A DNA stretch of 64,000 bases from Pontibacter fetidus. Its GTDB lineage: Bacteria > Bacteroidota > Bacteroidia > Cytophagales > Hymenobacteraceae. The notes under the pieces are model-generated. The model was not told where the DNA came from. It ran no database searches and was given only the letters and a program-made list of their open reading frames with translations. Positions 9,182 through 62,769 of this stretch are shown one piece after another. Each line of letters opens with the position of its first letter. The first letter of the stretch is position 1. Both the position numbers and the translations under genes were made by a program. The stretch is taken from positions 186,001 through 250,000 of the forward strand of contig NZ_JAAEAA010000004.1 in NCBI RefSeq assembly GCF_010119545.1, read 5' to 3'.

Positions 9182-9878
9182 ATGAAAAAGATCTGTTTCC
9201 TGGTTTTTATGCTGATAAGTATAGCCGCCAACGCTCAGCAAATTGCGCCTGATGCCAGGGCAACTATAGTTAAAACTGCAGTTATGAATGCCGTTGGTGG
9301 AGGTAAAGCGATCAAAGGAATCAGCCACTTTAGCTACACTATACACAAGACCACCTATAGTTCGGACACGACTGTTACCCGCACAGCTTATACACTGGAT
9401 CTGAACCGCAAACACATACAGGAAATACAGTTTACAGCTGCTGATACTATTACAAAATGGATTGGAGAAGATGGCGCCTGGCTGCAGAAGAATGGCATCA
9501 AAAACCACATTACCAGAAACGGACAATATAAGGCTACAACATATTTTCCTGACCAACTTTATACCGATGCTGCAAAACGACAGCCTGGTGTATGAGTATA
9601 AAAAATCTGTAGTTTATAAAGACCGTGAAGCCCAAATTGTGCAGGTGTATACGCCACAAAAAAAGGCCCTGCTCATGGACATGTTTGTTGACGCTAAAAC
9701 CGGGAAGATACTCACCTCTTCTAAACCTGACCCTGAAACGGACAACTATAATTACTTTGCTGATGAACTGGACTACCAGCCGATCGGGAAGGGTGTGATT
9801 TTTCCGTTAGTATACCAGGTATGGGTAAAGGGTAAGCTAGTAACAGAAGGGAAGTTTTTAAACGTAGTGGTGAAGTGA
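9182..9878 (+). pseudogene. Frameshifted secreted protein (LolA/outer-membrane-lipoprotein-sorting-like)
   Basis: Two overlapping frames together encode one protein. Frame A (9182-9595) starts with the signal peptide MKKICFLVFMLISIAANAQ and runs to about FPDQLYTD. Frame B (open to 9878) continues from about LQNDSLVYEYKK to the stop. Removing one base near 9555-9575 gives a continuous 231-residue product. The C-terminal part, with FVDAKTGKIL and GVIFPLVYQV, resembles the LolA-like fold seen in Bacteroidota exported proteins; this is tentative. No slippery heptamer or stimulatory hairpin is evident. A real inactivating indel or a sequence error therefore fits better than programmed frameshifting. 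Confidence 0.65.
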
Positions 9879-9938
9879 TAAAAGAAAAACAGAGCGGCAG
9901 CCTAGGGTGTGATGGAGGCCTGCCGCCCTGCAGTTATA

Positions 9939-10307
9939 CTATAGGTAGGTTGCAAAATTATCGGTGTTCTGCCAGAATTCGCGGCAGGCTTTTCGCTGTT
10001 CTTCTAAAAATTCAGCGTCTTTTTTTAGTTCTCTCCAGTTGCCGTAGCCCAAGCGCTCGCATAGCCTGAAGAAGTTGTCGCCCTGGTTCTTAAAGCCTTT
10101 GGTGCTAACCAGTGCGCTTAATAAGGGTCTGCCCTCCGAGTGTTCCTCTTCCGAGATCTCGTCTATCACTTCAATCAGCTCTGCTTTTTCGTAAGTGTTA
10201 TCTAGGTTTAAGCCTAATTCGGCCTCGTAGATAAGGTTTTGGAAGGTCATTTGGTTAGCTCTGCCGCGAGCTACCTGAATAAGTTTTTTACGTACGCGTG
10301 TATTCAT
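9939..10307 (-). CDS. Conserved hypothetical protein, 122 aa
   Basis: The frame is open further upstream, but I chose the ATG at 10307 because MNTRVRKKLIQ begins the compact hydrophilic part. The longer version would add an unlikely 39-residue leader. The protein is charged and mostly helical, with an acidic middle (EVIDEISEEEHSEG), a G-Y-G-NWRELKKD segment and no signal peptide or Cys motif. It should be cytoplasmic. I do not recognise a family. The next upstream gene on this strand is the TIGR03915-type gene, 178 bp away, so co-transcription is possible but not clear. Confidence 0.6.
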   Translation of the reverse strand: MNTRVRKKLIQVARGRANQMTFQNLIYEAELGLNLDNTYEKAELIEVIDEISEEEHSEGRPLLSALVSTKGFKNQGDNFFRLCERLGYGNWRELKKDAEFLEEQRKACREFWQNTDNFATYL

Positions 10308-10485
10308 ATGTGCAAAAACTATAACTAAAGCCGCAGATCGTGGTAAGACCACTTTATGCATTAGCAGGTTTTCTGCCGCTTGTTTTAAAATAAATATATA
10401 GTAATGCTTACGTGCAGCGTACACCGTATGTTACAGGTGAGTGCAATTTTCTGCTCCTTTTTTCGGAACAAGGTTCGTTTTGGGG

Positions 10486-11262
10486 TTATGCCTGCATGCG
10501 TGGCTGTTTTTCGGAAAGATATTTCCAGTAACGTTTGGGAATATGCCTTAGGTGCAATTTCGGGTTTTTACGCTCCGGTATGTTTACGTGATCAAAGTAT
10601 ACCTGCCATAATTGTTTGTATGTATGCTCTTCTTCCATTACTGCCGACTCCGGCAACACGCCTATACCTTTTCGGGGCGCTGCATCCAGTGTTATAAAAG
10701 TTGTAGTGTGCAGATCGTAGTAGGCACCGTACCGGCGACGCGTGTCGTAAATGGCCCAAAGCTGGTCGGCGTAGCGTTTCGTAAAATGGCTGATGATAAC
10801 GGGCAGCACATTAAAGTCAGGCTCAATGTGCGCATAGTATAGCTCTTCGGTTGTCTTCTGGAAACGCACAAACGCTTCCATGCGGTGTTTTTCGCGGTGC
10901 AGTTGTTTAGCTGCCTGTTGCACCTGTAATACACACGGGGCTGTATAGTTGCCTTCTATACTTTCAGAGTTATCAAACGCGAGCTTAATATAACTGAATA
11001 TGGTTTGCTCAAAACCGGGCTGCTCCCACAGGTAAGTATAGTATAGCTCTTTAAGTGCGCTGGCAGATAAGCGCTTCTGCAATCCTTTCCATACTCTTCC
11101 GGCTTTCTCCTCATCAGCAGTAACGGCTATAGTTGTCCCGAAAATACCTGGCTGCGCCAGCTGCTCCTGCTCAATGGCAGTAGGCCAGGCTTTGCGCTCG
11201 TAGGCTTCGAACACTACCGTCAGCAGTCCTTCAAAAGAGCCGTCGTAAGTATAGAAATGCAT
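10486..11262 (-). CDS. TIGR03915-family putative DNA repair protein (DUF4130)
   Basis: The 258-residue protein starts MHFYTYDGSFEGLLTVVFEAY and contains SHFTKRYADQLWAIYDTRRRYGAYYD and a basic C-terminus (PKLHLRHIPKRYWKYL). These features match the TIGR03915 group, which is almost always encoded beside a TIGR03916 radical SAM protein, as here. In some taxa the domain is fused to uracil-DNA glycosylase-like enzymes, which is the reason for the DNA repair prediction; the actual reaction is unknown. It starts 7 bp after a 66-residue ORF that separates it from the radical SAM gene, so the three are probably one operon. Confidence 0.82.
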   Translation of the reverse strand: MHFYTYDGSFEGLLTVVFEAYERKAWPTAIEQEQLAQPGIFGTTIAVTADEEKAGRVWKGLQKRLSASALKELYYTYLWEQPGFEQTIFSYIKLAFDNSESIEGNYTAPCVLQVQQAAKQLHREKHRMEAFVRFQKTTEELYYAHIEPDFNVLPVIISHFTKRYADQLWAIYDTRRRYGAYYDLHTTTFITLDAAPRKGIGVLPESAVMEEEHTYKQLWQVYFDHVNIPERKNPKLHLRHIPKRYWKYLSEKQPRMQA

Positions 11263-11269
11263 TTAAAGC

Positions 11270-11470
11270 TTACTGGTTGTTGTTGCGGGCTTTCTCCTGT
11301 TTGCGCTCGGCCTGCATGCGCTGCAGGTGAGGTACCAACATGTTCAGTTTGCAATAACAGGATACGCGGGCAACTTTGTTATTCTTTCTCATCACTTTTA
11401 CTTTTATCGTTTTTATCTTTTTTGTTTCTGATTCTTGATCTGTAGCAACTGCTTTATACTTCTGTGCCAT
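11270..11470 (-). CDS. Small basic protein between the radical SAM and TIGR03915 genes
   Basis: The ORF encodes 66 residues. It begins 17 bp after the radical SAM stop and ends 7 bp before the TIGR03915 start, spacing that is typical of a real operon member. The product is very basic (KKIKTIKVKVMRKNNKVARV), with a CYC motif (VSCYCKLN) and a second basic cluster near the end, compatible with nucleic-acid binding. I do not know a named family. The tight packing is the main support; it could be a chance ORF in a spacer. Confidence 0.5.
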   Translation of the reverse strand: MAQKYKAVATDQESETKKIKTIKVKVMRKNNKVARVSCYCKLNMLVPHLQRMQAERKQEKARNNNQ

Positions 11471-11487
11471 AGCTATACTTGGTTTTA

Positions 11488-12753
11488 TCAGCCCACTTGC
11501 CGGAACAGGTCCAGCTGCTGGGTAAGCAACGGGCTCCGTACGGCACCATCTCCAAACAATATCTTATTCCTGATGCGCTGCGAGTCGAAGTCGTAAGGTT
11601 GCAGGCTTTTGTGGTTACAGGTTATAAAGTATTTTGCCCGCTTCAGCACCACGCCCATCTGCCGTAGATGTTCAAAAGTAAGAGCAGCAAACCTGCGCGC
11701 CGACACAATCTTCTTGGCCGACTTCACCCCAATTCCGGGTACTCTCAAAATCATTTCATAGTCTGCCGTGTTCAGCTCTACCGGGAAAGCATGGCGGTTG
11801 CGTAGCGCCCAGCTCAGTTTCGGGTCAATGTCCAGGTCAAGGTGCGGGTTGCTGTCATCCAGTATTTCCTTTACATCAAAGCCATAAAAGCGCATAAGCC
11901 AGTCAGCCTGGTAAATGCGGTTCTCTCTTATAATTGGTGGCTCCGTGATGATCGGCAAACGGTTATCGGCACTTACCGGCACGTAACCCGAATAATACAC
12001 GCGCTTCAAACTATAGTCTTTGTACAGCTGGTCCGATAGCAACAGGATCTGCTGGTCGTTCTCGGCGGACGCACCAACTATAAGCTGTGTACTTTGGCCG
12101 GCCGGTGCAAAAGTTGGCGCCGACTTAAAAAGCTTCTTCTCTTCTTTGGCCTGCATCAACTGCTGCTTAATGTTATCCATCGGCAGCAGTATTTCAGAGT
12201 AGCTTTTTTCCGGAGCTAATTTTTTCAGACTGTTTTCAGAAGGCAGTTCAATGTTTACGCTCAGGCGATCGGCATACAAACCGGCTTCTTTTATCAGTTC
12301 TTCGCTGGCACCCGGTATAGTTTTCAGGTGGATGTAGCCGTTAAACTTATGTTCCTGACGCAGCTTTTTGGCAATGCGTACCAGGCGCTCCATGGTGTAG
12401 TCGGCATTCGAGAAAATACCGGAACTCAGGAAAAGCCCCTCGATGTAGTTGCGGCGATAGAAGTTTATAGTTAAGTCTACTACTTCCTGCACCGTAAAGG
12501 CAGCTCTTTTAATGTCATTACTTTTGCGGGTAACGCAGTAAGCACAATCAAAAATGCAGTGGTTGGTAAGCAATATCTTCAGTAACGAAACACAACGGCC
12601 GTCTTCAGTATAACTATGGCAAATGCCCATCCCTTCCGCATTACCCAGGCCTTTGTTCTCGTTCTTCCGCTTTCCGCCGCTCGATGAACACGAAACATCG
12701 TATTTCGCAGCATCTGCTAATATCTTTAGTTTCTCTGTTATTCTGCTATCCAT
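11488..12753 (-). CDS. TIGR03916-family radical SAM protein, putative DNA modification/repair
   Basis: The 421-residue enzyme has a radical SAM iron-sulfur motif CIFDCAYC (C66, C70, C73) preceded by extra cysteines (C22, C45, C54). A helix-hairpin-helix DNA-binding element lies near 335-365 (ILRVPGIGVKSAKKIVSAR). That combination defines the TIGR03916 family, predicted to act on DNA bases with the adjacent TIGR03915 protein. It should be cytoplasmic and require S-adenosylmethionine and a [4Fe-4S] cluster. It is the first gene of the leftward three-gene set. The product is not established for any member I can name. Confidence 0.87.
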   Translation of the reverse strand: MDSRITEKLKILADAAKYDVSCSSSGGKRKNENKGLGNAEGMGICHSYTEDGRCVSLLKILLTNHCIFDCAYCVTRKSNDIKRAAFTVQEVVDLTINFYRRNYIEGLFLSSGIFSNADYTMERLVRIAKKLRQEHKFNGYIHLKTIPGASEELIKEAGLYADRLSVNIELPSENSLKKLAPEKSYSEILLPMDNIKQQLMQAKEEKKLFKSAPTFAPAGQSTQLIVGASAENDQQILLLSDQLYKDYSLKRVYYSGYVPVSADNRLPIITEPPIIRENRIYQADWLMRFYGFDVKEILDDSNPHLDLDIDPKLSWALRNRHAFPVELNTADYEMILRVPGIGVKSAKKIVSARRFAALTFEHLRQMGVVLKRAKYFITCNHKSLQPYDFDSQRIRNKILFGDGAVRSPLLTQQLDLFRQVG

Positions 12754-12995
12754 TCAGGCTATAGTTGTCTGCTTTAATGTTTTAAAGGTAGCACTTGATC
12801 AGCAATACTCCTAACAATTTTAGCAAAAACTTATAAACACGCTTATCAACATCTACATAAATACTAATTTAATTAGCATGCAGATTATGCTATAAAAGCG
12901 CCTATATCCATTTTAAGCGTATTGCGTAAGTGTTCTGCGCTTAAAAACCGTTATCTTTAGAAGGCTATACTTATTTTGTACCTCCTGTAAACTTT

Positions 12996-14900
12996 ATGCA
13001 TCCCTGCTCCCCTAACTATAGTTTAGCTTTGCGGCCGTTACTGCTGGCACTGCTTCTGCTATTTACTACAGGGTTAGCCGCACAAAAAAAACCGACTCCC
13101 AAGCCCGTTTTAGTTAAGCCCGATACTACCGTTATTATAACAGATACCACCCGCCATTTTGAAGAGCGCGTAATGCAGAACCTGAAGCAATTGTCGGAGC
13201 GGAAAACGATAATGGGGAAGTTGCTGAACTCGTTGCTGGAGTTTGACCCTAAAGACGAAGTACTGAACCTGGATGCAGAACTGATAGAGCGTGAATACGA
13301 ACGCCACAACTATAAAGTAGTGCGCAACATACGCATCGTTACGCAGGATGCTTTTGGCTATTCGATACAGGACACCACGCTGGTACCGGATAACTGGCTC
13401 GAAAAAACGGGCAATATCTTCCATGCAAAATCGAAGCGCAACCTTGTCCGGAACAAGCTGCTTTTTCAGAAAAACAAAGTGCTGGAACCGCTGGCGCTGG
13501 TAGAATCGGAGCGTTTGCTGCGACAAACGGATTACATACTGGATGCCCGCATAATAGTAGACGAACGCACCACCACCGACGACAGCCTGGATGTGATTGT
13601 CATTACCAAAGACGTATTCAGTTTAGGTGGGTCCGGTTCTTTTTCCCCCTCGTCTGGGTCAGGAAGGGTAACGGTTCGCGAGCTTAACTTTTTAGGCCTG
13701 GGCCATCAGCCAGAGATCACGTACCGCTTTAACCAGGAAAAGCCACGCCCCTGGGAGTTTGCCGGGCGCTATAGCATAGAGAACATTGGCAGGTCGTATA
13801 TTACCGCCGATGTAGCCTACATTAACCAGAATTACTACAAGGAGAAAAGCGCCTTCCTGCACCGTGATTTTTATGCGACCAATACCCGTTATGCCGGTGC
13901 TGCAGGTATAAGCCAGGTAGATGAGCGCATACTGCTGCCGCCTACCAGTGCAGATACAGTTCCGCAGTTTGGTAACCTGGGCTATACACGCCGCGATGCC
14001 TGGCTTGGTCGTGCCTTTAAATTCAAAACTTATAACCTGGGCTACGAACCGCGCGGCCGCATGATCATTGGTCTACGTGTAGTGGATACAAAGTATAACA
14101 CCACCCCTACTGCAAACTTCCAGAGCAACCAGCTATACCTGGGCAGTATAGGTTATAGCGTGCGTAAGTATTATAAAGACCGCTACCTTTTTGGTTTTGG
14201 CCGCACAGAAGATATTCCAGCCGGAAGCATCGTGTCGATTACCACAGGTTATGAAGATGGCACCGTTAAAGACCGCCGCTATTTGGGAGCATCGATAGCG
14301 TATGCCCGGTACAGCGCCAACTTTGGTTACCTGTATGGCAATGCATCTTATGGGTCATTTATTCGGGATGATGCCTGGGAACAGGGTATGTTGCAGGTGC
14401 AATCGTTATACTTTACCAGGTTGTATGAAAACGGCAACTGGAAACTGCGCCATTATGTACAGGGTCGTGCTACCTTTGGCCTTAACCGCAACCCCGAAGA
14501 GTTGCTTACTATTAATAACAACGAGGGCCTGCGCGGGTTTAACTCTGCCATGTTGCGCGGCAGCAAACGCTTTACGGTTAATTACGAGGCTAATTTATAT
14601 ACTCCTTTTTCTTTTCTGGGCTTTAAACTGGCGACTCTTGCCTTCGCTGATGTGGCCTGGCTCTCGGCCGGCAATAAAGCGAATCCGTTCAACTCCAAAC
14701 CTTATACCGGCTATGGGTTAGGCTTCCGGTTCCGGAATGAGTACCTGTCTTTCAGTACGATACAGATCCTGTTCAGCTTTTACCCGCGCCTGCCTGCCAA
14801 CGAAGACATCAGCAGTTTTAAAGTATACGAGGTTTCGCGCCCCTATTACGACTTCACTGATTTCCGTTTTGAGCGCCCGGGCGTAGCCGAATTCCGCTAA
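12996..14900 (+). CDS. Omp85-superfamily (BamA/TamA-like) outer-membrane protein
   Basis: The 634-residue protein has a signal peptide (ALRPLLLALLLLFTTGLAAQ) and a Pro/Lys linker. A POTRA-like region follows around 100-200 (EREYERHNYKVVRNIRI; LARIIVDERTT-type strands), then a C-terminal barrel with repeated Gly/aromatic strands. It is shorter than true BamA, with room for about one POTRA domain, so a specialised paralogue is more likely than the essential assembly factor. The expected location is the outer membrane. It stands alone between the rightward dps gene and the leftward radical SAM operon. The palindrome AACTATAGTT lies within its first codons (13014-13023). Confidence 0.78.
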   Translation: MHPCSPNYSLALRPLLLALLLLFTTGLAAQKKPTPKPVLVKPDTTVIITDTTRHFEERVMQNLKQLSERKTIMGKLLNSLLEFDPKDEVLNLDAELIEREYERHNYKVVRNIRIVTQDAFGYSIQDTTLVPDNWLEKTGNIFHAKSKRNLVRNKLLFQKNKVLEPLALVESERLLRQTDYILDARIIVDERTTTDDSLDVIVITKDVFSLGGSGSFSPSSGSGRVTVRELNFLGLGHQPEITYRFNQEKPRPWEFAGRYSIENIGRSYITADVAYINQNYYKEKSAFLHRDFYATNTRYAGAAGISQVDERILLPPTSADTVPQFGNLGYTRRDAWLGRAFKFKTYNLGYEPRGRMIIGLRVVDTKYNTTPTANFQSNQLYLGSIGYSVRKYYKDRYLFGFGRTEDIPAGSIVSITTGYEDGTVKDRRYLGASIAYARYSANFGYLYGNASYGSFIRDDAWEQGMLQVQSLYFTRLYENGNWKLRHYVQGRATFGLNRNPEELLTINNNEGLRGFNSAMLRGSKRFTVNYEANLYTPFSFLGFKLATLAFADVAWLSAGNKANPFNSKPYTGYGLGFRFRNEYLSFSTIQILFSFYPRLPANEDISSFKVYEVSRPYYDFTDFRFERPGVAEFR

Positions 14901-14963
14901 GCTTTTCAAATCCTTTTCTGCGCTTTTTCGGTAAGTATAGCTGTATAAATACAAACTATACCT

Positions 14964-15596
14964 ATGGAAAAACTAAGAGAAAAATCAGAATATGAAGGCA
15001 ACCCGGTAGGGTTATCAGATAATACAGCAAAAGTTATGGCCCGTGAACTGGACCGCCACCTGGCTTCTTTTATCACGCTGTTTAACCAGTATCATAAGCA
15101 CCACTGGATGGTAGAAGGCCCGCAGTTCAGAGACCTGCATTTGTTCTTTGAAGACCACTACACCCAACTGCACGAGCAGTACGACGCTATTGCCGAGCGC
15201 CTGACCGTAATGGGTTACTGCCCGACCTGCCACCCTAAAAAGCAACTGGAGCTATCTTACATAGAGCATGAAGAGGAAGGTGTTTTCAGGATTAGAGAGA
15301 TGCTGGCCAAGGACATGGACGATGAGAAGAACATTGCCATAGAGCTCCGTAAAACTATAAAACTTGCGTTCCAGCACGAAGATTTTGCAACCAAAGCTCT
15401 GTTGGAAGGAATCCTGATCAAAACAGAAGACCGCTGCCATCACATCGAGCACTTTTTAGGTGAAGATGGTTTATCTATAGGCCTTATTGCCAAACCCGAA
15501 GATATTATGGATGAAGAGGATAAGAAAAGCCGCAGCAGCAAACCTGGTTTAAGAGTAACAGCCAAAAAAGCTCCTGCAAAAGCAAAGGCGAAGTAA
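14964..15596 (+). CDS. dps: Dps-family DNA-binding ferritin with basic C-terminal tail
   Basis: This 210-residue Dps has ferroxidase ligands spaced exactly as in the family: H47, H59, D74 and E78. Dps proteins form dodecamers that oxidise and store Fe(II) using hydrogen peroxide and can coat DNA. The protein is longer than the usual 150-170 residues. A CPTCHP element (86-91) interrupts the core, and the C-terminal 30 residues are rich in Lys and Ala (AKKAPAKAKAK), a likely DNA-binding tail. A second, standard-length Dps is encoded at 37081-37554. A terminator follows directly, so this gene is probably monocistronic. Confidence 0.92.
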   Translation: MEKLREKSEYEGNPVGLSDNTAKVMARELDRHLASFITLFNQYHKHHWMVEGPQFRDLHLFFEDHYTQLHEQYDAIAERLTVMGYCPTCHPKKQLELSYIEHEEEGVFRIREMLAKDMDDEKNIAIELRKTIKLAFQHEDFATKALLEGILIKTEDRCHHIEHFLGEDGLSIGLIAKPEDIMDEEDKKSRSSKPGLRVTAKKAPAKAKAK

Positions 15597-15615
15597 GTAT
15601 AAAGTATAGATTTGA

Positions 15616-15646
15616 AAGGCGATGCAGCAATGTATCGCCTTTTTTG
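15616..15646 (+). terminator. Terminator of the dps gene at 14964-15596
   Basis: The 7-bp stem AGGCGAT (15617-15623) pairs with ATCGCCT (15634-15640), followed by a run of T, 20 bp after the stop codon. Confidence 0.82.
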
Positions 15647-15650
15647 TTTG

Positions 15651-15697
15651 TCTGAATCAGGATTTGTGGGATTTTAAAAGATGTATAGGATTTTATA
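15651..15697 (+). repeat. AATCCTG-type dispersed repeat, copy 1
   Basis: Starts TCTGAATCAGGATTT and continues with degenerate GGATT units every 9-12 bases. The same family is seen at 27541-27575, 35703-35750, 50552-50595 and 52155-52208. Confidence 0.65.
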
Positions 15698-15740
15698 ACT
15701 TATAGTGGGAGGTTATATGGGGTCTTGGCTTAGAATTAAT

Positions 15741-15773
15741 AGACGCTCCGAGGTGCAAGCACGCTCGGAGATC
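15741..15773 (+). repeat. 33-bp hairpin repeat, divergent copy 1
   Basis: Reads AGACG, then stem CTCCGAG, an 11-base loop ending GCACG, then CTCGGAG. Compared with the copy at 16268 both stem arms have changed, yet pairing is kept. Confidence 0.6.
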
Positions 15774-15820
15774 GGCTATAGCTATAGTTATGGCTTTAGT
15801 TTTATAGTTACCGTTTTACC

Positions 15821-16301
15821 TCACCCCAGCCCTCTCCTAAAAACAGGAGAGGGAGTTTTCTGACATTGCTCTAATTGAATTTATAGGTACAAACAAAGAG
15901 CGAATAGGTCGCGACCTGTCCCTACGGAACTACAACCACGATCAATCTCGAAGCAAACAAGTTTCATATCAACTATAGAAGTAGCTATCGAAAGATCTCA
16001 GTCTTTGGGTTGAGCGCCTTGTAGATTTCTGGTGGCGCAGCCATTGCGAGGAACGAGCAAAAGAAATGTACACCGCGCGATGCCCGAAGACGGGGCCTCC
16101 CGGCCGTGAGGGAGCTAAAGTAACTATAAAACTATAGGCAAGTAGAGCTCCCAGGATGAAAGGGTAATTGAAAGTATAGCTTGGTTCAAAGAAGTATAAT
16201 TACCAGCTATAGGACAAATAAGATTTCTCGGCTAGCGCTCGAAATGACAATAGAGATACTATAGCAAAGACGCTAGCAGGAGCTTCGCACGCTGCTAGTT
16301 C
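15821..16301 (+). repeat. Composite intergenic repeat, copy A (about 480 bp)
   Basis: It shares ordered blocks with copies B (38911-39465) and C (42697-43274). The blocks are a TCACCCCAGCC/TCTCC left part, the palindromic AGGTCGCGACCT followed by GTCCCTACGGAA (15906-15928), the CAGTCTTTGGGTTGAGCGCC block (15999-16018), the GACGGGGCCTCCCGGCCGTG block followed by AGGGAG (16089-16114), AGAGCTCCCAGGAT, an AGATTTCTC...TCGAAATGACA end, and the 35-bp hairpin repeat. It encodes no plausible protein. Confidence 0.75.
16268..16301 (+). repeat. 35-bp hairpin repeat, copy 2
   Basis: AGACG, stem CTAGCAG, loop GAGCTTCGCACG, stem CTGCTAG: a perfect 7-bp stem. It is located at the right end of composite element A. 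Confidence 0.7.
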
Positions 16302-16439
16302 ACCTTCTTTTTATACTTAACCTACTCCATATTATACTTTACCTTAAATATATAGCCGATAAGTTTTTAACCGCTGTTACAACTTTTAAAGCCCCCTGCT
16401 TTTTATTAGATTTGTTACACAACACAAACAACAACAGGT

Positions 16440-17279: not shown

Positions 17280-17362
17280 CAAGGCTATACTTCCGCAAAC
17301 ACCTAACTAAAATCAGACTTACAACTTATTGCAGCAGCGCTTTTCCAGGGCGCAGTTATATT

Positions 17363-22502: not shown

Positions 22503-22503
22503 C

Positions 22504-52250: not shown

Positions 52251-52272
52251 ATAATTGATGCCAAACTATAGT

Positions 52273-54331: not shown

Positions 54332-54339
54332 TATTTTTG
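54332..54339 (+). promoter_or_regulatory. -7 box of serS
   Basis: TATTTTTG matches TAnnTTTG, 22 bp before the serS ATG. A TTG at 54307-54309 (22-base spacing) or TTTG at 54299-54302 is a poor -33 candidate. Confidence 0.55.
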
Positions 54340-54361
54340 TACCAATACTTAACACGCAACT

Positions 54362-55636
54362 ATGCTACAACTATCCGTTTTAAGGGAGCAGACAGACCTG
54401 GTAGTGGCAGGCCTAAACAAGAAAAACTACAAAAATGCAGCCGCTGAAGTTGCCGCTTTACTGGACCTTGACCAGCGTCGCCGCCAGGTGCAGAGCGAGC
54501 ACGACGAGTTGCAGGCCAGGGCAAACAGCATCTCTAAAGAGATCGGAATTCTGATGAAGAATGGCGAGCGCGAGAAAGCCGAATCTTATAAAACACAAAC
54601 TACTGAACTAAAGCAGCAAGCCAAAACCCTGGGTGACCAGTTAACATCACTGGAGGAAGAATTACAGGCTGCTTTATATAAGTTACCAAACCTGCCGCAC
54701 GAAAGCGTACCGGTAGGCCGTTCGGCAGAAGATAATGAAGTAGTGCTACAGCACGGCGAAATACCGGAGTTGCATGCCGGCGCGCAACCCCATTGGGAGC
54801 TTATTCAGAAATACGACATCATTGATTTTGACCTGGGCAACAAGATAACTGGTGCAGGTTTCCCGGTTTATAAAAAGCAGGGTGCCCGTTTGCAGCGCGC
54901 GCTTATCAACTTCTTTTTAGATGAAGCCCTGAAAGCCGGTTATATAGAAGTACAACCACCTATACTTGTAAACGAAGCATCGGGCTACGGTACCGGCCAG
55001 TTACCGGATAAGGATGGACAGATGTACCACGCCACCGAAGATAACTATTACCTGATACCGACTGCCGAAGTGCCGATCACAAACCTGTACCGCGATGTGA
55101 TTGTGCCGGTTGAGCAGTTGCCGATCAAGAATGCAGGCCATACGCCATGTTTCAGAAGAGAAGCTGGCTCGTGGGGCGCTGATGTGCGTGGCTTGAACCG
55201 TTTGCACCAGTTTGACAAGGTGGAGATTGTGCAGATAACGCTGCCTGAGAAGTCGTACGAAACGCTGGAAGAAATGAGCAGCTACATACAAGGGCTGTTG
55301 CAGAAACTGGAGTTACCTTACCGGGTGCTGCGCCTTTGCGGCGGCGATATGGGCTTTACCTCTGCCCTAACCTACGACATGGAAGTATACTCGACAGCGC
55401 AAGGCCGCTGGCTGGAAGTAAGCTCGTGCAGTAACTTCGAAACGTACCAGGCCAACCGCCTGAAATTGCGTTATAAAAACGATGCTGGTAAAACTCAGCT
55501 GTTGCATACGTTAAATGGTAGCGCCCTTGCCCTGCCTCGTATCGTAGCTGCCATCCTCGAGAATAACCAGACACCAGATGGTATTAACATGCCAAAAGTG
55601 CTGCACCCTTATTTAGGGTTTGAAAAGATTTCTTAG
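54362..55636 (+). CDS. serS: Seryl-tRNA synthetase
   Basis: The 424-residue class II synthetase has the N-terminal long coiled-coil arm that binds tRNA(Ser) (about 30-105: QRRRQVQSEHDELQARANSI; EEELQAALYKLPNLP). Motif 2 is TPCFRREAGSWGADVRGLNRLHQFDKVE, and motif 3 is LNGSALALPRIVAAILENNQ. It charges tRNA(Ser) with serine (and tRNA(Sec), where present). Cytoplasmic homodimer. It is divergent from rho and followed by its own terminator. Confidence 0.97.
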   Translation: MLQLSVLREQTDLVVAGLNKKNYKNAAAEVAALLDLDQRRRQVQSEHDELQARANSISKEIGILMKNGEREKAESYKTQTTELKQQAKTLGDQLTSLEEELQAALYKLPNLPHESVPVGRSAEDNEVVLQHGEIPELHAGAQPHWELIQKYDIIDFDLGNKITGAGFPVYKKQGARLQRALINFFLDEALKAGYIEVQPPILVNEASGYGTGQLPDKDGQMYHATEDNYYLIPTAEVPITNLYRDVIVPVEQLPIKNAGHTPCFRREAGSWGADVRGLNRLHQFDKVEIVQITLPEKSYETLEEMSSYIQGLLQKLELPYRVLRLCGGDMGFTSALTYDMEVYSTAQGRWLEVSSCSNFETYQANRLKLRYKNDAGKTQLLHTLNGSALALPRIVAAILENNQTPDGINMPKVLHPYLGFEKIS

Positions 55637-55683
55637 GATTTAGAAATTTAAAGTTGTGGAGAGTTGAAAATTATCTCTGCTAT

Positions 55684-55722
55684 AAAACAAAAGCCGCTGA
55701 TAATCTCAGCGGCTTTTGTTTT
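55684..55722 (+). terminator. serS terminator
   Basis: A perfect 17-bp stem, AAAACAAAAGCCGCTGA (55684-55700) with TCAGCGGCTTTTGTTTT (55706-55722), encloses the loop TAATC. Confidence 0.9.
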
Positions 55723-55875
55723 ATAGTTAGACGCCCACAGGTCTGTAAGACACTGTGAGGTCGGCCTTACTCAATTTGCTTTAGCTCTTTCGGACTTCCT
55801 AGTCCGCATCAGCTATAGTTCCGGATTAAGAAATCCGAAACAGCTCATTTTCATTTCCAACTTTTCAAATCTTAT

Positions 55876-56283
55876 TTACCCACCAAACTGCTCCTGGTAT
55901 TGCTGGTAGTAGGTCTTGAGTTTATACTTTTTAAGCTCGCCGCTTTTTACAGCTTTTATAGTTTCTTCAGCTATAGTTTGTTCTTGCAGAAGGTTCAACA
56001 GTAACTCATCACTCTCACTTAAGCCCTCTTGCAAAGTCAGTGCTTCGTAATGACACAAGAAATCGGGGTTAATGTTAAGCTTATTCTTGGTTATAGTTAC
56101 CACCTTTGCCGCTACCAGTTTCAGCAGAGCGTCTTCCACTTCTTTCAGTTCAAAGACAGTTCCGTCCACAGCATCGGCCATTAATAGCACTTCCTGCAAA
56201 GGCGCTCCGCCTTCACCGCCGGTAGCTAAAAGTAACGCTTCTAAAAAGCGCGAATCGGTTTCGTTCAACCTATAGTTCTTCAT
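55876..56283 (-). CDS. Conserved hypothetical protein, 135 aa
   Basis: The protein is helical, with no signal peptide, and should be cytoplasmic. It shows a run resembling a winged-helix: FELKEVEDALLKLVAAKVVTITKNKLNINPDF. A second helical half follows (LSESDELLLNLLQEQTIAEETI), then a basic tail KKYKLKTYYQQYQEQF. It lies 11 bp after the GT9 glycosyltransferase gene on the same strand, so the two are probably one operon. I do not recognise a named family, and the winged-helix reading is inference only. Confidence 0.62.
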   Translation of the reverse strand: MKNYRLNETDSRFLEALLLATGGEGGAPLQEVLLMADAVDGTVFELKEVEDALLKLVAAKVVTITKNKLNINPDFLCHYEALTLQEGLSESDELLLNLLQEQTIAEETIKAVKSGELKKYKLKTYYQQYQEQFGG

Positions 56284-56294
56284 CTGTTTTCTAA

Positions 56295-57308
56295 TTACTT
56301 ATTCGCAAAATCAACTATAGCCTGTTCATCAATATCGCGCATGCATTTAAAGTGGCCGAGCGGGCATTCTGATCTTCCGAACTTAGTGCACGGGCGACAA
56401 GGCAACTCCACTCCTGCTTCGTAATGTTTACTAACTTGGTAGGGCTGCACACCTAGTAGTTCCGGCACTGTACTCCCCCAGATCGTTACCAGTTCTTTAT
56501 CAAAAGCTTCGGAAATGTGTGTCAGTCCGGTATCGAACCCAATAACTTTGGCAGCCTGCTTCACCACGTATACCGATTCATTCATGTTCAGTTTTCCGCA
56601 GGCATTGTACACGTTCGCTCCGGCGGTTTCGGCTATAGTTGCGCCATTCTCTTCCACATCTTTGCCGCCCAGCAACACCACCGGTTTGTTAAGCGCGTTA
56701 CAGATGCTGATCACCTGATCATTCGGCATGCGCTTGGTAAAGTGCGTTGCTCCAATTATAAAAGCAACGTAATCCTGCTGGTGTGTTTCCGGTAGCAGTG
56801 TGCTCAAACTATAGTTGCCGGGCAGGAAATAATCAACCGGTTTCTGGTCGTTTACTACGCCTAAAAACTTTACAGCTTCCAGATAGCGGTCAACCAGGTG
56901 AGTTGGCTTTACCGTGTTCAGCTTAAACTTGAGCGCCAATATTTTGCGGATGCGCTGCTTTTTGAACGTCGAGAATTTTACGCCCAGCTTATACTTCACC
57001 AGCACCGAGCGCAGGCTGTTGTGCAGATCAATCACATAATCAAATTTCTCTGCCCGCAAATCCTGTATCGTGTCGTTCAGTTTATCTTTCAGCAGATGCA
57101 GCTTATCTACATATGGGTTATTATCAAGTATAAACCGGAAACCTGGCTTGGTCAGGTAATGAATCTCCACCCCCGGAACCTGTTGCTTCAGGCAACGGAC
57201 AACCGGCGTGGTGTAGATTATATCCCCGATAGAGCTGAACCGGATGATAAGTATTTTAAGCTTCTCTTTTTGCAATGGAGAGTTCTGTTTTATAGTTATA
57301 GTTGCCAC
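56295..57308 (-). CDS. Glycosyltransferase family 9 (heptosyltransferase-like)
   Basis: The 337-residue GT-B enzyme has the N-terminal KILIIRFSSIGDIIYTTPVVR (GT9 signature), VDYVIDLHNSLRS in the first Rossmann half, the donor-binding region GATHFTKRMPND and VVLLGGKDVEENGATIAE, and IGFDTGLTHISEAFDKELVTIWGST. The C-terminus ELPCRPCTKFGRSECPLGHF is characteristic of Bacteroidota GT9 proteins. It adds a sugar, classically ADP-heptose, to the lipopolysaccharide core at the inner face of the inner membrane. The exact donor is uncertain. It is followed by a small hypothetical gene. Confidence 0.9.
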   Translation of the reverse strand: MATITIKQNSPLQKEKLKILIIRFSSIGDIIYTTPVVRCLKQQVPGVEIHYLTKPGFRFILDNNPYVDKLHLLKDKLNDTIQDLRAEKFDYVIDLHNSLRSVLVKYKLGVKFSTFKKQRIRKILALKFKLNTVKPTHLVDRYLEAVKFLGVVNDQKPVDYFLPGNYSLSTLLPETHQQDYVAFIIGATHFTKRMPNDQVISICNALNKPVVLLGGKDVEENGATIAETAGANVYNACGKLNMNESVYVVKQAAKVIGFDTGLTHISEAFDKELVTIWGSTVPELLGVQPYQVSKHYEAGVELPCRPCTKFGRSECPLGHFKCMRDIDEQAIVDFANK

Positions 57309-57379
57309 TCCCTTCTCACAAGATTCTTCCAGAATGACAAAAAAGGTAAAAATTTATAGTTCAGCCTGATCTTATAATT

Positions 57380-57449
57380 TGTCATCTCGAACTATGTGAG
57401 AGATCTATCTCAGATTCTAAATAAATTTCTCGCTGCTCTCGAAATGACA
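57380..57449. repeat. 70-bp inverted element with composite-repeat ends
   Basis: Left arm TGTCATCTCGAACTATGTGA then GAGAT; right arm ATTTCTCGCTGCTCTCGAAA then TGACA. The arms are inverted relative to each other and match the TGTCATTTCGA...GAGAAAT ends of composite element B, but without its central blocks. Confidence 0.6.
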
Positions 57450-57462
57450 GCTAAAGTTTACC

Positions 57463-57599
57463 ATGGCGCGAGCGTATTCGCTCTTGATTTATAACAGGGC
57501 CTCTGGCCGTTTTTATTTAAGTCTGCAGCCTTAATTTTTACATCAAATGGGCGGGACGCCCAACTATAGTTCGACACGAGCGAAGACGCTCGCGCCATA
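57463..57599. repeat. 137-bp inverted repeat bounded by ATGGCGCGAGCG
   Basis: ATGGCGCGAGCG...TTCGCT on the left and AGCGAA-GA-CGCTCGCGCCAT on the right pair over about 18 bases with one bulge. The interior holds AGGGCCTCTGGCC and GGGCGGGACGCCC hairpins. It shares the ATGGCGCGAGCG word with 49484. Confidence 0.65.
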
Positions 57600-57611
57600 T
57601 TTAATCAGCAA

Positions 57612-59312
57612 TTAAATCCCCGCCTTCCGCTTATTAAAGTAAGCTTCTACTTCCTCTACTGGCTTGGCATTAAAGGTCATTTCTTTGGTTAGTCCGCCTT
57701 TTCGACCTACCAGCACGCCGTACTTCATGTCGTCGTAGCCACTGGTGTGGTGGGCGTCGGGGTTTATGCTGAGCATTACGCCCTTTTCTAAGGCATACTG
57801 CACGTGTCGCCAGTCCAGGTCTAAGCGCCAAGGGTTGGCGTTTATCTCGATGATGACGTTGTTGGCAGCGCAGGCATCTATCACCATTTTATGATTGATC
57901 GGGTAGCCTTCGCGGCGCAGCAATAGCCTGCCGGTCGGGTGGCCGAGCATGGTGGTGTAAGGGTTTTCAATGGCTGTGATCAGGCGCTGTGTAGCTTTTT
58001 TCTCATCCATATTCAATACGCTGTGAATGCTGGCAACTATAAAGTCGAAGGTTTTCAGAATGTCTTCTTCATAGTCCAAAGAGCCGTCAGTCAGGATATC
58101 CGATTCTATACCTTTGAAAATCTTGAAAGGAGCCAGTTTCTGGTTCATCTCATCTATCTCTTTTTGCTGGCGCAGCACATCGCCTTCGCGCAGGCCGCCT
58201 GCATACGATGCTGTTTTGCTGTGATCCGAAATACCTAAATACTGGTAGCCCATATCGCGGCAGAAAGTAGCCATTTGCTCTAAAGTATGCGCGCCATCGG
58301 AGTAAGTGCTGTGGTTGTGCAGGATGCCTTTCAGGTCAGATAGCTCGAGCAGTTTTGGTAGTTTGTTATCCATGGCCAGTTGCAGCTCATTAGTACCTTC
58401 GCGCAGCTCCGGAACGATGTAGGCCATACCAGCTGCATGGTACACATCCTCTTCGGTTTTATGGTTCTCTTCGCGCAGCACATTCAGCATGGTTTTACCG
58501 GCTGCAAAAACCTGTGTTAAGTGTGGTTCAGAAGCTGATCTTAAAACGACTTCGTTGGCAAAGCAGGCATCATCCACCAATCTGATTTCGGTAGCCATGC
58601 CATTTAAACTATAGTTACCGCGCCAGATGCGTGGACCAGAGTTACGCACATCCTGTTCCAGCACATCAATCTTACTAAGTTTTTCACAGGCATCTTTATA
58701 CTTATCAGTAGCCACTACAAACTGCAGGCTTTCTACAATTTCCATGCGGCGGCGCACATCACCTACTACTTCTATTTTGGCATCTGGCAGGGCTTGTTTT
58801 ATAGTTTGTAACAGTTCTTCGGCACTTGGTTCGGCTTCGGCATATAACAACTTACCACGATTTTGTTGGGTAAAGAGCAGCGCCTGTTTTATGTTTTCCT
58901 GGGTTTTAGCGCCAAAGCCTTTCAGTTTGCTCAGTTTGTCCTGCTCGCAGGCCTCCAGCAATTCTTCCACGGTTTCAGTGCCCAGTTCTTTCCAGATGGT
59001 ACGCACCTTTTTAGGGCCAATGCCTTTTATGCGCAGCATCTCTACCACACCCGGCGGGGTGGCGGCCAGCATCTGGTCCAGTTCCTCGAACGAGCCGGTC
59101 TGGTTTATTTCGATTATTTTGGCAGCAATCCCTTTGCCAACTCCCTGTATACTTTCCAGGGTAGCCTGGCTCATGCCTGCCAAAGGTTCTTCCACTAATT
59201 CCAGCGTGGCGGCGCCATTTACGTAAGAGCGAATTTTGAACGGGTTCTCATCGTGCAGCTCCATCAGCTCGGCAGCCAGCTTAAACAGTCGTATGATCTT
59301 TTTATTTTCCAC
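57612..59312 (-). CDS. PolX-like protein with degenerate polymerase domain and intact PHP domain
   Basis: The 566-residue protein begins with helix-hairpin-helix elements (LESIQGVGKGIAAKI; MLRIKGIGPKKVRTIWKELG). It continues with a pol-beta-like palm and a C-terminal PHP phosphoesterase. The palm motif reads EVVGDVRRRMEIVESLQFVV (181-200); PolX polymerases have a GS then a D-x-D catalytic pair in that place. The PHP metal ligands look complete: LHNHSTYSDG (H332, H334), GISDHS, KGIESDIL, ASIHS, LGHPTGR and INPDAHH. It should therefore act as a DNA-repair 3'-5' exonuclease or phosphoesterase rather than a polymerase; that reading is inference. Confidence 0.82.
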   Translation of the reverse strand: MENKKIIRLFKLAAELMELHDENPFKIRSYVNGAATLELVEEPLAGMSQATLESIQGVGKGIAAKIIEINQTGSFEELDQMLAATPPGVVEMLRIKGIGPKKVRTIWKELGTETVEELLEACEQDKLSKLKGFGAKTQENIKQALLFTQQNRGKLLYAEAEPSAEELLQTIKQALPDAKIEVVGDVRRRMEIVESLQFVVATDKYKDACEKLSKIDVLEQDVRNSGPRIWRGNYSLNGMATEIRLVDDACFANEVVLRSASEPHLTQVFAAGKTMLNVLREENHKTEEDVYHAAGMAYIVPELREGTNELQLAMDNKLPKLLELSDLKGILHNHSTYSDGAHTLEQMATFCRDMGYQYLGISDHSKTASYAGGLREGDVLRQQKEIDEMNQKLAPFKIFKGIESDILTDGSLDYEEDILKTFDFIVASIHSVLNMDEKKATQRLITAIENPYTTMLGHPTGRLLLRREGYPINHKMVIDACAANNVIIEINANPWRLDLDWRHVQYALEKGVMLSINPDAHHTSGYDDMKYGVLVGRKGGLTKEMTFNAKPVEEVEAYFNKRKAGI

Positions 59313-59454
59313 GGCGCTATATCGTATAGTTACAAAGATAGGAAAACCGACCGAACCATAGTTGCTGGTGTTTTATATTCATTCGCTTCTATATAAAGGC
59401 AGAAATCCCTATCTTGGCTTACAAAATATGCTGCTGTTGCAGCGTTCTATACTT

Positions 59455-59868
59455 ATGAAATACGCTTCGCTGCTTTGTTTGGTGTGCCTGTTGCTACTGG
59501 CCAATACCTGTAAAAGACCCAGTAAACTGGAAACCCAGTTAGTTGGCAAAACCTGGCTACACGCTTTTGAAGAGGACCAGGAAGACATTACCACATATCG
59601 CCCCAACACCTACGATTTTGCTCCATCGCGGGGTCGCACAGGCTTTATGCTGGAGAAAGGCGGTATCCTGAAAAATTATGCCATTGCCCCTGCCGACGGA
59701 CTGGAAGAACAAGCCGGCACCTGGCAGTTTACCGATAATGACAAGATACTGGTAACTATAAAGCCGGAAGGCCAACCGCAACAGCAATACATTATAGAGG
59801 TGGTGTCGCTGGAGAATGATGTGCTGAAAGTGAAACGCGAAGAAGTAACTGAAAACCCGATAAAATAA
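59455..59868 (+). CDS. Small lipocalin-like lipoprotein
   Basis: I chose ATG 59455 (MKYASLLCLVCLLLLANTC) because it gives a clean lipoprotein signal peptide with the lipobox Cys at residue 19; a longer frame from 59362 would bury it. The remaining 118 residues are beta-rich, with LVGKTWLHAFEEDQEDITTY, TYDFAPSRGRTGFMLEKGG and AGTWQFTDNDKILVTIKPEG, resembling lipocalin-like stress-domain lipoproteins. Envelope-located; ligand unknown. It is directly followed by a 64-residue membrane protein gene. Confidence 0.7.
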   Translation: MKYASLLCLVCLLLLANTCKRPSKLETQLVGKTWLHAFEEDQEDITTYRPNTYDFAPSRGRTGFMLEKGGILKNYAIAPADGLEEQAGTWQFTDNDKILVTIKPEGQPQQQYIIEVVSLENDVLKVKREEVTENPIK

Positions 59869-59869
59869 C

Positions 59870-60064
59870 ATGTTCAGTTACCGAAACCTGAGCGCCCGAA
59901 CCCGCGCCATCATCTTATTCTCGTTGTTGGGTGTGCTGGCTATACTTATAGTTGCCGAGCCCAAAGGCGACTTCTTCAACTTCCTGAAAGGCTTCCTGAA
60001 TGGCGTCCTGATCGTGATGTTTCTTGGCGAGGTTGGCTTATACTTTATGGGCCGGAAGAAGTGA
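59870..60064 (+). CDS. Small membrane protein, 64 aa
   Basis: The ATG lies one base after the stop of the lipocalin-like gene, so translation is probably coupled. It has two hydrophobic helices (TRAIILFSLLGVLAILIVAE and FLNGVLIVMFLGEVGLYFMG) joined by a KGDFFNFLKG loop, ending in a basic RKK. It should lie in the inner membrane. No family is recognised; the tight spacing is the main support for reality. Confidence 0.65.
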   Translation: MFSYRNLSARTRAIILFSLLGVLAILIVAEPKGDFFNFLKGFLNGVLIVMFLGEVGLYFMGRKK

Positions 60065-60090
60065 GATTTATACTTTAAAATAATCTACAA

Positions 60091-60540
60091 ATGAATAAAA
60101 TATTCACACTTATTATCATACTTGGCCTAACAATTAGTATAACTAAAGCACAAGGAATTGATGCTTTAAAACTTAGCGAGACAGAACTTCCTGCAAACTA
60201 TAAAATTGCTGATAAGCTTTATTGTAAATCGATACAAGTAGCAACTCTTTATAATAGTCCTCAAACTTATAGCTTCCTTTTAGGGAATATGGTTGAAAAG
60301 AGCTTTCAGAGTTTTGAAAGCGAGAATGAAAAGGGTTCTGTTATGTTTATTACTTTTGATAAAGATGTATCAGAAAGTGATTCATTTATTGAAGGTTTAA
60401 TTTGGGGTAGCTCAGGAAAACCGACTAAAGCACATCCGGAAGAATTCTTGGCTAAAGGGAATACACTTGTCATCTGGAGCTTTGAAAGAAAAAGTCCAAT
60501 CAAAGATCTTTCGAAAGATAAAGTAACAAAGAACTTATAG
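60091..60540 (+). CDS. Secreted hypothetical protein, AT-rich gene
   Basis: The 149-residue product has a signal peptide (MNKIFTLIIILGLTISITKAQ) and a mature part with LPANYKIADKLYCKSIQV, EKGSVMFITFDKD and HPEEFLAKGNTLVIWSF. No known domain is visible. The gene is clearly AT-richer than those on either side and uses A/T-ending codons. That sets it apart from the local codon style and suggests recent acquisition, as for 3629-4771. It is 26 bp after the small membrane gene. Confidence 0.62.
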   Translation: MNKIFTLIIILGLTISITKAQGIDALKLSETELPANYKIADKLYCKSIQVATLYNSPQTYSFLLGNMVEKSFQSFESENEKGSVMFITFDKDVSESDSFIEGLIWGSSGKPTKAHPEEFLAKGNTLVIWSFERKSPIKDLSKDKVTKNL

Positions 60541-60614
60541 TTTTCGAGCATTTATATATCAAGTCAAAAGCTTGCAACAACAATCAACAACACTTTTACA
60601 CTTACAAAAATCAA

Positions 60615-61019
60615 ATGCATTACTGGTTAGTAAAATCGGAGCCTGAAACGTATTCGTGGGCAGACTTAGTGAGAGACGGGCGCATCTGCTGGGATGGCGT
60701 CAGAAATTACCAGGCACGTAACAACCTGCAGCAAATGCAACCCGGCGACATGGTATTGTTTTACCACAGTGTAACCGAGAAAGCTATAGTTGGCATTGCT
60801 AAAGTAGACAAAGCCGCTTACCCCGACCCAACTGCCGACGACCCGAAATGGATGGCTGTGGACTTGGTGCCGTTCCGGGATTTCAGAGACCCGGTAACAC
60901 TGGAGCAGATAAAACAGGATAAACGCCTCGAAAATATTGCCCTGCTGCGCCAATCCAGGTTATCGGTTATGCCACTTAAAGCCGAAGAGTTTGATGTGTT
61001 GCTGGCGCTCGGCAACTAA
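60615..61019 (+). CDS. EVE-domain protein
   Basis: The 134-residue single-domain protein has the EVE/thymocyte-nuclear-protein fold: MHYWLVKSEPETYSWADLVR, WDGVRNYQARNNLQQMQPGDMVLFYHS, IVGIAKVDKAAYPDPT and FRDPVTLEQIK. EVE domains are PUA-like and bind modified bases such as 5-methylcytosine derivatives in DNA or RNA; the bacterial role is not settled. Cytoplasmic. The gene starts 74 bp after the AT-rich gene and is followed by a spacer of 119 bp. It contains one CTATAGTT. Confidence 0.92.
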   Translation: MHYWLVKSEPETYSWADLVRDGRICWDGVRNYQARNNLQQMQPGDMVLFYHSVTEKAIVGIAKVDKAAYPDPTADDPKWMAVDLVPFRDFRDPVTLEQIKQDKRLENIALLRQSRLSVMPLKAEEFDVLLALGN

Positions 61020-61138
61020 CTATAGCTATAGATTAAATTTACGGGCAACAAAACAACGATTGGCGACTAAAACAAGTACAAGCCTTTAGCCGCCAATCTT
61101 ATACTTTTCCTGTACTTACCTATACTATACTTAGCGCT

Positions 61139-62620
61139 ATGTACAAAGTATGCCTGTTGCTCTTACTTATAGTTGTGCTTGCCTGCTCATCTGTGCTCGC
61201 GCAAAAGCCTACACAACCTATCCGTATAGAACTGGAACTCGACAGCTATAAAACCGATGCAGATCTTATTGCCACCCCCGACAGCAGCTTACTGCTATTT
61301 ACCAAAACAGAAGGTATGTGGTCGGTGCCGCCAACTTTTGAATTCACAAAATACAACAGCCAGTTACAACCTGTCTGGACAAAAAAAGTAGACTTAAAAC
61401 CGATAAGTCAGTATTTAACGCACTACTCCGAAGCCCGCTATGCCCATGTAGCTTTTAGTGGCGACAACGAAAAAAAGTACCAGTTTGTAAAGCTCAACCT
61501 CAAAAGTGGCAACATAACCAAACACGACTACACAATAGAAGCCATCGACTCTATTTATTCGTTTGAAGTGGTGGCTGATAATTACTTTATAGTTGCCCGC
61601 TCGCGCAAAGATGGTACCCCTACCCTGCTGCACCTGAACCAGGCATCCGGCGAAATAAAGCCCCTGCCTGCCGCTTATGGTGCCGAGTCTGCTTTTTCTG
61701 ATGTGCTGGCTCACCCGCAGCAAAAACAGGTAAGCGTGGTTATGTCGGAGTCGAACGGGCGGGTATCGCGGTTGCAAACCAAACTATTTGATGCGGGCGG
61801 CACCTTGCTTAAAAACTATTTTATACTCCCCGAACTTGATAAGCGACCCTTATATGCCGAGGTAACACCCGGCGACACCACCACCAGGTTATTGATTGGC
61901 AATTATGCAACCCGCAACCTGCGCTATGCTACAGGCTTCTTTACAGTACCCGTTAATTCCAACGCCGCCGATACACGTTACTATAGTTTTCTGCAGCTCA
62001 AAAACTTTTTTAAGTACATGAGCCCCAAACGCGAAGCGCGAACCCGCCGCCGCGAGACAAACCGCCTGAAGGCAGGCAAAGAACCTAATCTACAATACCG
62101 CCTACTGCTGCACGATATTTATACTACACCAGATGGCTACATACTTAGTGCCGAGGCATATACAACCAACTCCCGACAAGGGGGTTTCAACAGGCTTTAT
62201 GGCCCAACAGGCTATTTCCTTCCCAGCCCTAAAAGTTACCGCCGCACACAGGCTGTTGCGCTCGGCTTTGATAAAAGTGGTGTATTGCTTTGGGACAACA
62301 GCTTCCCGCTGCAGGATATAGAAAGCAGGGAATTGCGCCCCACCGTCGAGGTAGCCTGTAACCCCGCCGGAAAAGTCGTGATTGCTTACCCTGATAAGGA
62401 CGAGATCGAATACAAAATAATGGACCAGGATACCTACATCGAAGATAAAACCAACCTGAAACTACAACCTGAAGACCCCAACGGTAAAATCCTGTCGACG
62501 AGCATGGCTGGGGTTGTAAGCTGGTACGGACTCAATTTTGCTGCATTTGGCTGGCACCGTATCAAATCGCCGGGTTCAGACATAAAGCAGGTTTTCTATA
62601 TCAACAAGGTTTCGTTTTGA
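61139..62620 (+). CDS. Secreted protein of unknown function, 493 aa
   Basis: It has an N-terminal signal (VCLLLLLIVVLACSSVLAQ) and a mature domain of many short strands and turns (FTKYNSQLQPVWTKKVDLK; FSGDNEKKYQFVKLNLKSGN; LGFDKSGVLLWDNSFPLQD). These look like repeated blades of a propeller. A central basic segment (SPKREARTRRRETNRLKAGKEP) interrupts it near residue 295. It is probably periplasmic or cell-surface. No enzymatic motif and no named family recognised. It lies upstream of the pyr genes across a 204-bp spacer. Confidence 0.66.
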   Translation: MYKVCLLLLLIVVLACSSVLAQKPTQPIRIELELDSYKTDADLIATPDSSLLLFTKTEGMWSVPPTFEFTKYNSQLQPVWTKKVDLKPISQYLTHYSEARYAHVAFSGDNEKKYQFVKLNLKSGNITKHDYTIEAIDSIYSFEVVADNYFIVARSRKDGTPTLLHLNQASGEIKPLPAAYGAESAFSDVLAHPQQKQVSVVMSESNGRVSRLQTKLFDAGGTLLKNYFILPELDKRPLYAEVTPGDTTTRLLIGNYATRNLRYATGFFTVPVNSNAADTRYYSFLQLKNFFKYMSPKREARTRRRETNRLKAGKEPNLQYRLLLHDIYTTPDGYILSAEAYTTNSRQGGFNRLYGPTGYFLPSPKSYRRTQAVALGFDKSGVLLWDNSFPLQDIESRELRPTVEVACNPAGKVVIAYPDKDEIEYKIMDQDTYIEDKTNLKLQPEDPNGKILSTSMAGVVSWYGLNFAAFGWHRIKSPGSDIKQVFYINKVSF

Positions 62621-62648
62621 TGGTTAGATTGCTAATAGTTGAATGGTA

Positions 62649-62769
62649 GAAGGCTTAATTGTTAAACTATAGTTTGACCTGCTTAGCAGTAAAACTTAAC
62701 TATAGCTAACCCTGTCATTGATCAAACAATACAACCATCTGCAATTAACAATTTAACAATTAAGCCTTC
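62649..62769. repeat. Perfect 18-bp inverted repeat upstream of pyrR
   Basis: GAAGGCTTAATTGTTAAA (62649-62666) and TTTAACAATTAAGCCTTC (62752-62769) are exact complements with an 85-base spacer that begins with ACTATAGTTTG. AACAATTAA words continue to the right. Confidence 0.75.

Follow-up and report, generated by a model that had tools for sequence, protein, structure and literature searches.

A directional seven-base word and its dialects in the genus of Pontibacter fetidus, with an abundant palindrome best read as two overlapping copies

We analysed a window of 64,000 nucleotides from Pontibacter fetidus (Bacteroidota, family Hymenobacteraceae; contig NZ_JAAEAA010000004.1, positions 186,001 to 250,000), in which the palindrome AACTATAGTT recurs far beyond chance. 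What is repeated is the directional word AACTATA, 7-8 bases long; AACTATAGTT is most plausibly the incidental product of two opposed copies overlapping at their self-complementary TATA. AACTATA is itself the AAC dialect of a word ARSTATA, which is abundant as AAG, AGG or AAC in 39 of the 50 genomes of the genus. The simplest account appears to be that the genus shares a sequence-specific reader of drifting specificity; our first choice for its role, to which we give a probability of roughly 0.4, is recognition of self DNA linked to uptake or recombination, with the word spread by molecular drive.

Results

The evidence that the 7-mer and not the palindrome is the unit comes from how often two words meet. 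In 400 kb of the relative G028, 3280 TATA tetramers carry AAC on the left in 699 cases, GTT on the right in 625 and both in 123, against 133.2 palindromes predicted from independent half-words; the corresponding figures are 84 against 110.8 in G017 and 93 against 76.6 in G000, the 4.07-Mb genome of the window. These counts lie near independence in all three genomes. In G049, a genome of the AAG dialect, and in the sample of the AGG dialect the matching palindrome falls under chance, at 20 against 81 and 4 against 22 predicted. In 351 kb of G000 there are 988 AACTATA (2.8 per kb) and 552 AAGTATA, which is 15.8 and 8.8 times what a first-order model predicts; over the whole window, 1..64000, the forward and reverse counts are 99 and 92 for AACTATA and 46 and 69 for AAGTATA. 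The flanks of AACTATA in the G000 sample are uneven, with G before it in only 11% and G or A after it in 84%. Eight of its 20 one-mismatch words are enriched 2.0-2.8 times, the other 12 standing at 0.24-1.54, and for AAGTATA one of 19 exceeds 2 times; decayed copies are therefore present, and no general depletion of near-misses is seen.

Exact copies of AACTATAGTT number 24 in the window, compared with a mean of 0.06 after dinucleotide shuffling. The first-pass annotation had counted the 22 within 9262-62674 and missed those at 387 and 1518; it was right that chance gives less than one copy, and right that CTATAG and AAGTATA are in excess. Counted on both strands, the 48 occurrences stand against 1.47 expected from a third-order Markov model, while a fifth-order model expects 32 of them, a first hint that a shorter word accounts for the palindrome. 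The whole of G000 contains 1087 copies, the reversed control word occurring 5 times. As had been proposed, copies lie both in genes and in spacers, and the enrichment is not limited to a few mobile copies. More than 100 copies were found in 8 of the 204 genomes of the family, all 8 in one genus: 1087-1477 per genome in 5 of its 50 (G000, G009, G017, G028 and G038) and 104-330 in G013, G045 and G049. The remaining 196 family genomes have 0-28 each, and 80 named loci around rho hold 2 copies in 1.46 Mb total. Among these 80 loci, from which the nearest records may have been left out, that of Pontibacter roseus has the highest whole-protein Rho identity (77%); it aligns with G000 at 73.8% identity over 14.5 kb and carries the AGG word. 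The encoded proteins resemble those of Bacteroidota, and the genus whose 50 genomes were compared is probably Pontibacter. The literature searched, with incomplete coverage, yielded papers on HIP1 and on the DNA uptake sequence (DUS) and no report of this word in Bacteroidota.

AAGTATA, called a related half-word in the first pass, is in its own right the abundant word of 23 of the 50 genomes of the genus, G000 among them, with at least 2052 copies per strand. AGGTATA reaches 2866-4796 per strand in 12 of the 50 (reversed control, 110-189); in other genera of the family this word, the only one of the three 7-mers counted there, stays at or below 588 per strand. For whole genomes the AAC dialect was assigned through the palindrome count (five genomes), AACTATA itself being counted in samples, and the cut-offs for a strong dialect that the 39 genomes pass are our own. 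The dialects agree with a species tree of 13 genomes, built from 12.9 kb and rooted by our choice on the AGG group, with the other 37 genomes of the genus outside it. The order, supported at 0.99-1, runs from G026 and G049 (AAG) through G045 and G013, which hold both words, to the AAC clade.

Comparison of aligned copies between species sets retention within a dialect apart from retention across dialects. Within a dialect, retention is about 1.4-2.6 times that of control 7-mers: 597 of 851 AACTATA sites of G028 are intact in G017 (control 0.52) and 153 of 272 sites of G000 in G028 (0.30), as are 15 of 30 AAGTATA sites of G026 in G049 (0.22) and 15 of 20 AGGTATA sites of G003 in G023 (0.41). 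Across dialects retention is at the control level or lower, as for AAGTATA from G049 to G028 (51/413; control 0.17) and to G017 (47/412; 0.17), AACTATA from G028 to G049 (64/406; 0.18) and AGGTATA from G003 to G049 (1/29; 0.17). Minority words act like remnants, being well kept in the genome where they are dominant: 51 of 95 AAGTATA sites of G028 are intact in G049. Part of the words are rewritten in place between dialects. The AAGTATA sites of G049 read AACTATA at 44 of 413 in G028 and 28 of 412 in G017, while the transition at the same base is found at 5 of 413 and 7 of 412; the same G-to-C change in other 7-mers has a background of 0.8% for the G028 pair, an excess of about 13 times, which the plain mutational attractor suggested in the first pass explains poorly. 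Differences in copies among species come largely from base substitution and much less from insertion, with 5 of the 851 words of the G028-G017 comparison wholly in a gap and 40 touching one.

Codon choice in genes is skewed 6-8-fold to the local dialect. Measured against 30 synonymous-codon shuffles, each of which preserves the protein, AACTATA in genes numbers 680 against 89.7 in G028, 602 against 83.2 in G017 and 97 against 15.1 in the window; AAGTATA in G049 gives 653 against 92.1 and AGGTATA in the AGG sample 102 against 12.0, and two control words lie at about or under expectation. The palindrome also respects reading frames, as had been claimed: in 351 kb of G000, open reading frames (ORFs) of 100 or more codons contain 36 copies, 13 of them at offset 0, 23 at offset 2 and none at offset 1, where the palindrome would bring in a stop. 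The density of the dominant word in G028, G017 and G049 rises from 2.0-2.2 per kb in genes to 6.1-8.2 in spacers; dominant words are 3-6 times denser in spacers than in genes, compared with only 1.7 times for the minor word AAGTATA in G000. Spacers of G000 carry 9.0 copies of the dominant word per kb between convergent genes and 4.9 between divergent ones. Within genes 60-63% of AACTATA copies are sense and 54% of AAGTATA copies in G049 antisense; in spacers orientation is near even, and no preferred distance to gene starts or stops was found. Of the checks proposed at the outset, that of strand symmetry gave near-even counts in three genomes (699/625, 548/568 and 463/562), with 51-55% on the G-rich strand, and that of spacing showed no evenness: the coefficient of variation of the gaps between palindromes is 1.11 over C44:1-180000 and 0.80 in the window, and of those between AACTATA words 1.37 and 1.33. 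In spacers of G028 (L210-L229) the word also forms tandem clusters 8 bases apart (AACTATAGAACTATAG). Fifteen loci around methylase genes of AAC genomes, partly overlapping one another, carry 0.19-1.95 AACTATA per kb, compared with 2.00-3.65 in 16 stretches of G000 to which they are unmatched in coding share and G+C.

We looked for a reader with profiles of DNA methylases, PF01555 and PF02086 in 50 genomes each, PF00145 and PF02384 in 13 each and PF07669 in 24. In none of these five families did we find a DNA methylase that all five palindrome-rich genomes share; PF01555 was not found in four of the five and PF02086 not in three. One or more C5 methylase genes do occur in every one of these five genomes. 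The genes from G000, G038 and G028 are related to one another and to that of G013 (58-84% identity), whereas G017 and G009 have only genes unrelated to them, so that a related gene is present in only three of the five; no C5 match was found in G045, G049, G026 or G023. The five families do not support the earlier suggestion of a methyltransferase target, notwithstanding the C5 gene in all five genomes. Recurrent weak hits to PF02384, some 300 and 400 residues long, were set aside: those of G028 are PrmC and an RlmL-like rRNA methylase. The related C5 methylases are of about 540 residues in G000 (L159, C27:1-16000), G038 and G013, with a shorter frame in G028 (L160, L161 and L162 being the other loci), and AACTATA density at them is 0.31 per kb in G028, 0.19 in G038 and 1.5 in G000. 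At L145 and L146 proteins that we judged by eye to be ATPase-like adjoin C5 methylases.

The copies of AACTATAGTT in the window, which are listed without strand, are distributed as follows. Copies within ORFs are at 387..396 (ORF 12-1352), 13014..13023 (12996-14900), 17096..17105 (16440-17279), 18439..18448 (17363-19864; also intact in G045), 23480..23489 (22556-23497; also intact in G009 and G013), 36007..36016 (35971-36915), 56807..56816 (56295-57308) and 58607..58616 (57612-59312). The copy at 20580..20589, also intact in G017 and G038, lies between two ORFs, that at 35875..35884 is not within any ORF of at least 200 codons, and that at 52264..52273 marks the 3' edge of the rho-like ORF 52273-54078 (-). 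The copy at 42842..42851, also intact in G038, stands just before a GGTCGCGACC hairpin repeat at 42878. Two further copies are also intact elsewhere, 27234..27243 in G028, G009 and G013 and 34562..34571 in G038. The others are at 1518..1527, 9262..9271, 22061..22070, 27440..27449, 33309..33318, 39140..39149, 39516..39525, 50534..50543, 57562..57571 and 62665..62674.

Other repeats were seen in the same DNA. The hairpin repeat GGACAGGTCGCGACCTGTCC occurs at 15907 and 42878, often with TATAG or AACTATAG words close by, and its GGTCGCGACC core has 8 copies in the G000 sequence examined. An interspersed spacer repeat beginning TCTGAATCAGGATTTGCAGGATT (35693-35753) has 12 matches there, itself included, and matches in all 12 relatives searched. 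A second palindrome, TCCGGA (for example at 1989, 2573 and 12209), occurs 135 times in G000 compared with 48 by a second-order model, or 2.8 times, and in 10 of 14 other samples it is one of the five leading palindromic 6-mers.

Discussion

Under the reading that we prefer, a DNA reader common to the genus would favour copies of its own word, and its specificity would drift between species. It would most likely act when DNA is acquired or recombined, as a self-recognition resembling an uptake signal; alleles that bear the word would spread by molecular drive, and words would accumulate most where protein constraint is least. A more specific form, which we hold a little more tentatively, is a pilus-independent self-recognition in a Bacteroidota genus in which AAGTATA drifted to AACTATA and the genome-wide set, extrapolated from samples at about ten thousand words, was reset, some words being rewritten base by base and intermediate species holding both.

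Several observations weigh against self-recognition. AACTATA is kept no better than control from G017 to G049 (89/436, 0.20 in each case), from G000 to G013 (18/57, 0.32 and 0.35) or from G017 to G013 (28/99, 0.28 and 0.29), the lack of excess toward G013 being expected if that genome reads mainly AAG. Words gained after two species split would by themselves account for part of the low retention from word-rich to word-poor genomes, and retention within a dialect could be inflated by parallel gain. Interspersed repeats contain 244 of 555 spacer sites in G028 and supply part of the spacer excess, though only part, the 311 others being singletons. Depletion of islands is uneven, L164, L159 and L144 standing at 1.5-1.95 per kb. 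No strong dialect is seen in 11 of the 50 genomes (G008, G014, G016, G027, G029, G033, G035, G036, G037, G041 and G047), of which some show moderate enrichment (G016, AAG 1472 forward against 340; G041, AGG 1567 against 288) while others are empty (G035, AAG 370 against 495). A search with PF00437, in which about 31 best candidates were scored per genome, gave only P-loop-sized fragments in all 50 genomes, three of them just above the cut-off and none full-length. ATPases of pilus, type II and Tad systems are thus apparently missing, as is the route by which pili are known to take up DNA, so that entry would need different machinery. No reader was found among the families searched, which did not include ComEC, DprA, AddAB or RecBCD.

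Four alternatives deserve consideration. The word might be a Chi-like site that regulates a nuclease of the RecBCD or AddAB type and marks self DNA for recombinational repair. A short directional word with species variants, scarce in several acquired-looking islands, suits this; the small replication-strand bias and the AT-rich composition, which contrasts with the known Chi sites, do not, and we find the idea doubtful. An orphan methyltransferase that modifies the word, with linked repair or selection enriching it in the manner of HIP1, is somewhat less probable. Alternate HIPs have been tied to matching methyltransferases by Elhai (2015; PMC4390886), and here C5 matches occur in every palindrome-rich genome and several are related; against this, the palindrome is not the unit, two of these genomes have only unrelated C5 genes, four other genomes of the genus have no C5 match, and the remaining families, PF02384 and PF07669 included, offer no common DNA methylase.

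Context-dependent mutation or biased repair toward the word, without function, we rate as improbable as the methylase. It would account for enrichment by substitution on both strands and in genes and spacers, yet it needs a roughly 13-fold G-to-C transversion in one lineage while the neighbour keeps G, and one-mismatch words, 8 of 20 of which are enriched for AACTATA, are not generally depleted. The least probable of the four is a binding site for a nucleoid or chromosome-segregation protein or a global regulator: thousands of sites, denser in spacers and more so between convergent than divergent genes, would fit such a protein, but their distance from the starts and stops of genes is not fixed, their orientation in spacers is near even, they are not evenly spaced, and in genes the two dialects lean to opposite strands. 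Spread by micro-insertion or mobile elements is unsupported, so few words lying wholly in gaps, and a promoter role is rejected given the absence of any preferred distance to genes.

Comparison with known systems

Chi sites are likewise short, directional, over-represented words that vary by species; the word described here is AT-rich, and its near-even strand counts are unlike the strong bias of Chi. The cyanobacterial HIP1 and alternate HIPs share its extreme over-representation in genes and spacers, and are palindromes, most of them GC-rich and generally accompanied by matching methyltransferases (PMC4390886). The likeness to HIP1 drawn in the first pass therefore holds for abundance and for genome-wide excess in coding and non-coding DNA, and fails for the palindrome, which is incidental here, its overlaps being near chance in three genomes; nor was a common DNA methylase found. 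With neither such a methylase nor a pilus ATPase found, neither the HIP1 model nor that of pilus-based uptake fits directly.

To our knowledge, words of the uptake type have been described in two proteobacterial families. The abstract of PMC1939737 names only Pasteurellaceae and Neisseriaceae. The present case would add a different phylum, represented by a genus in which three dialects and transitional species occur and the search for a pilus ATPase gave none. If self-recognition is correct, it offers a natural experiment on a DNA reader that changes its specificity and carries a whole genome along; it would predict which species can exchange DNA, and the right word on donor DNA might aid genetic work in these bacteria. 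The genus differs from the Neisseriaceae with their DUS in phylum and apparently in machinery, its 50 genomes having given only fragment matches to PF00437. DUS are 10-12 bases long (PMC3630211), compared with 7-8 here, so that copy numbers are not directly comparable. The resemblance lies in the pattern: as in the genus studied here, where thousands of directional words occur on both strands, Neisseriaceae have a short directional word in thousands of copies, with dialects a few bases apart that are consistent with the tree and an excess in permissive spacers (PMC3630211).

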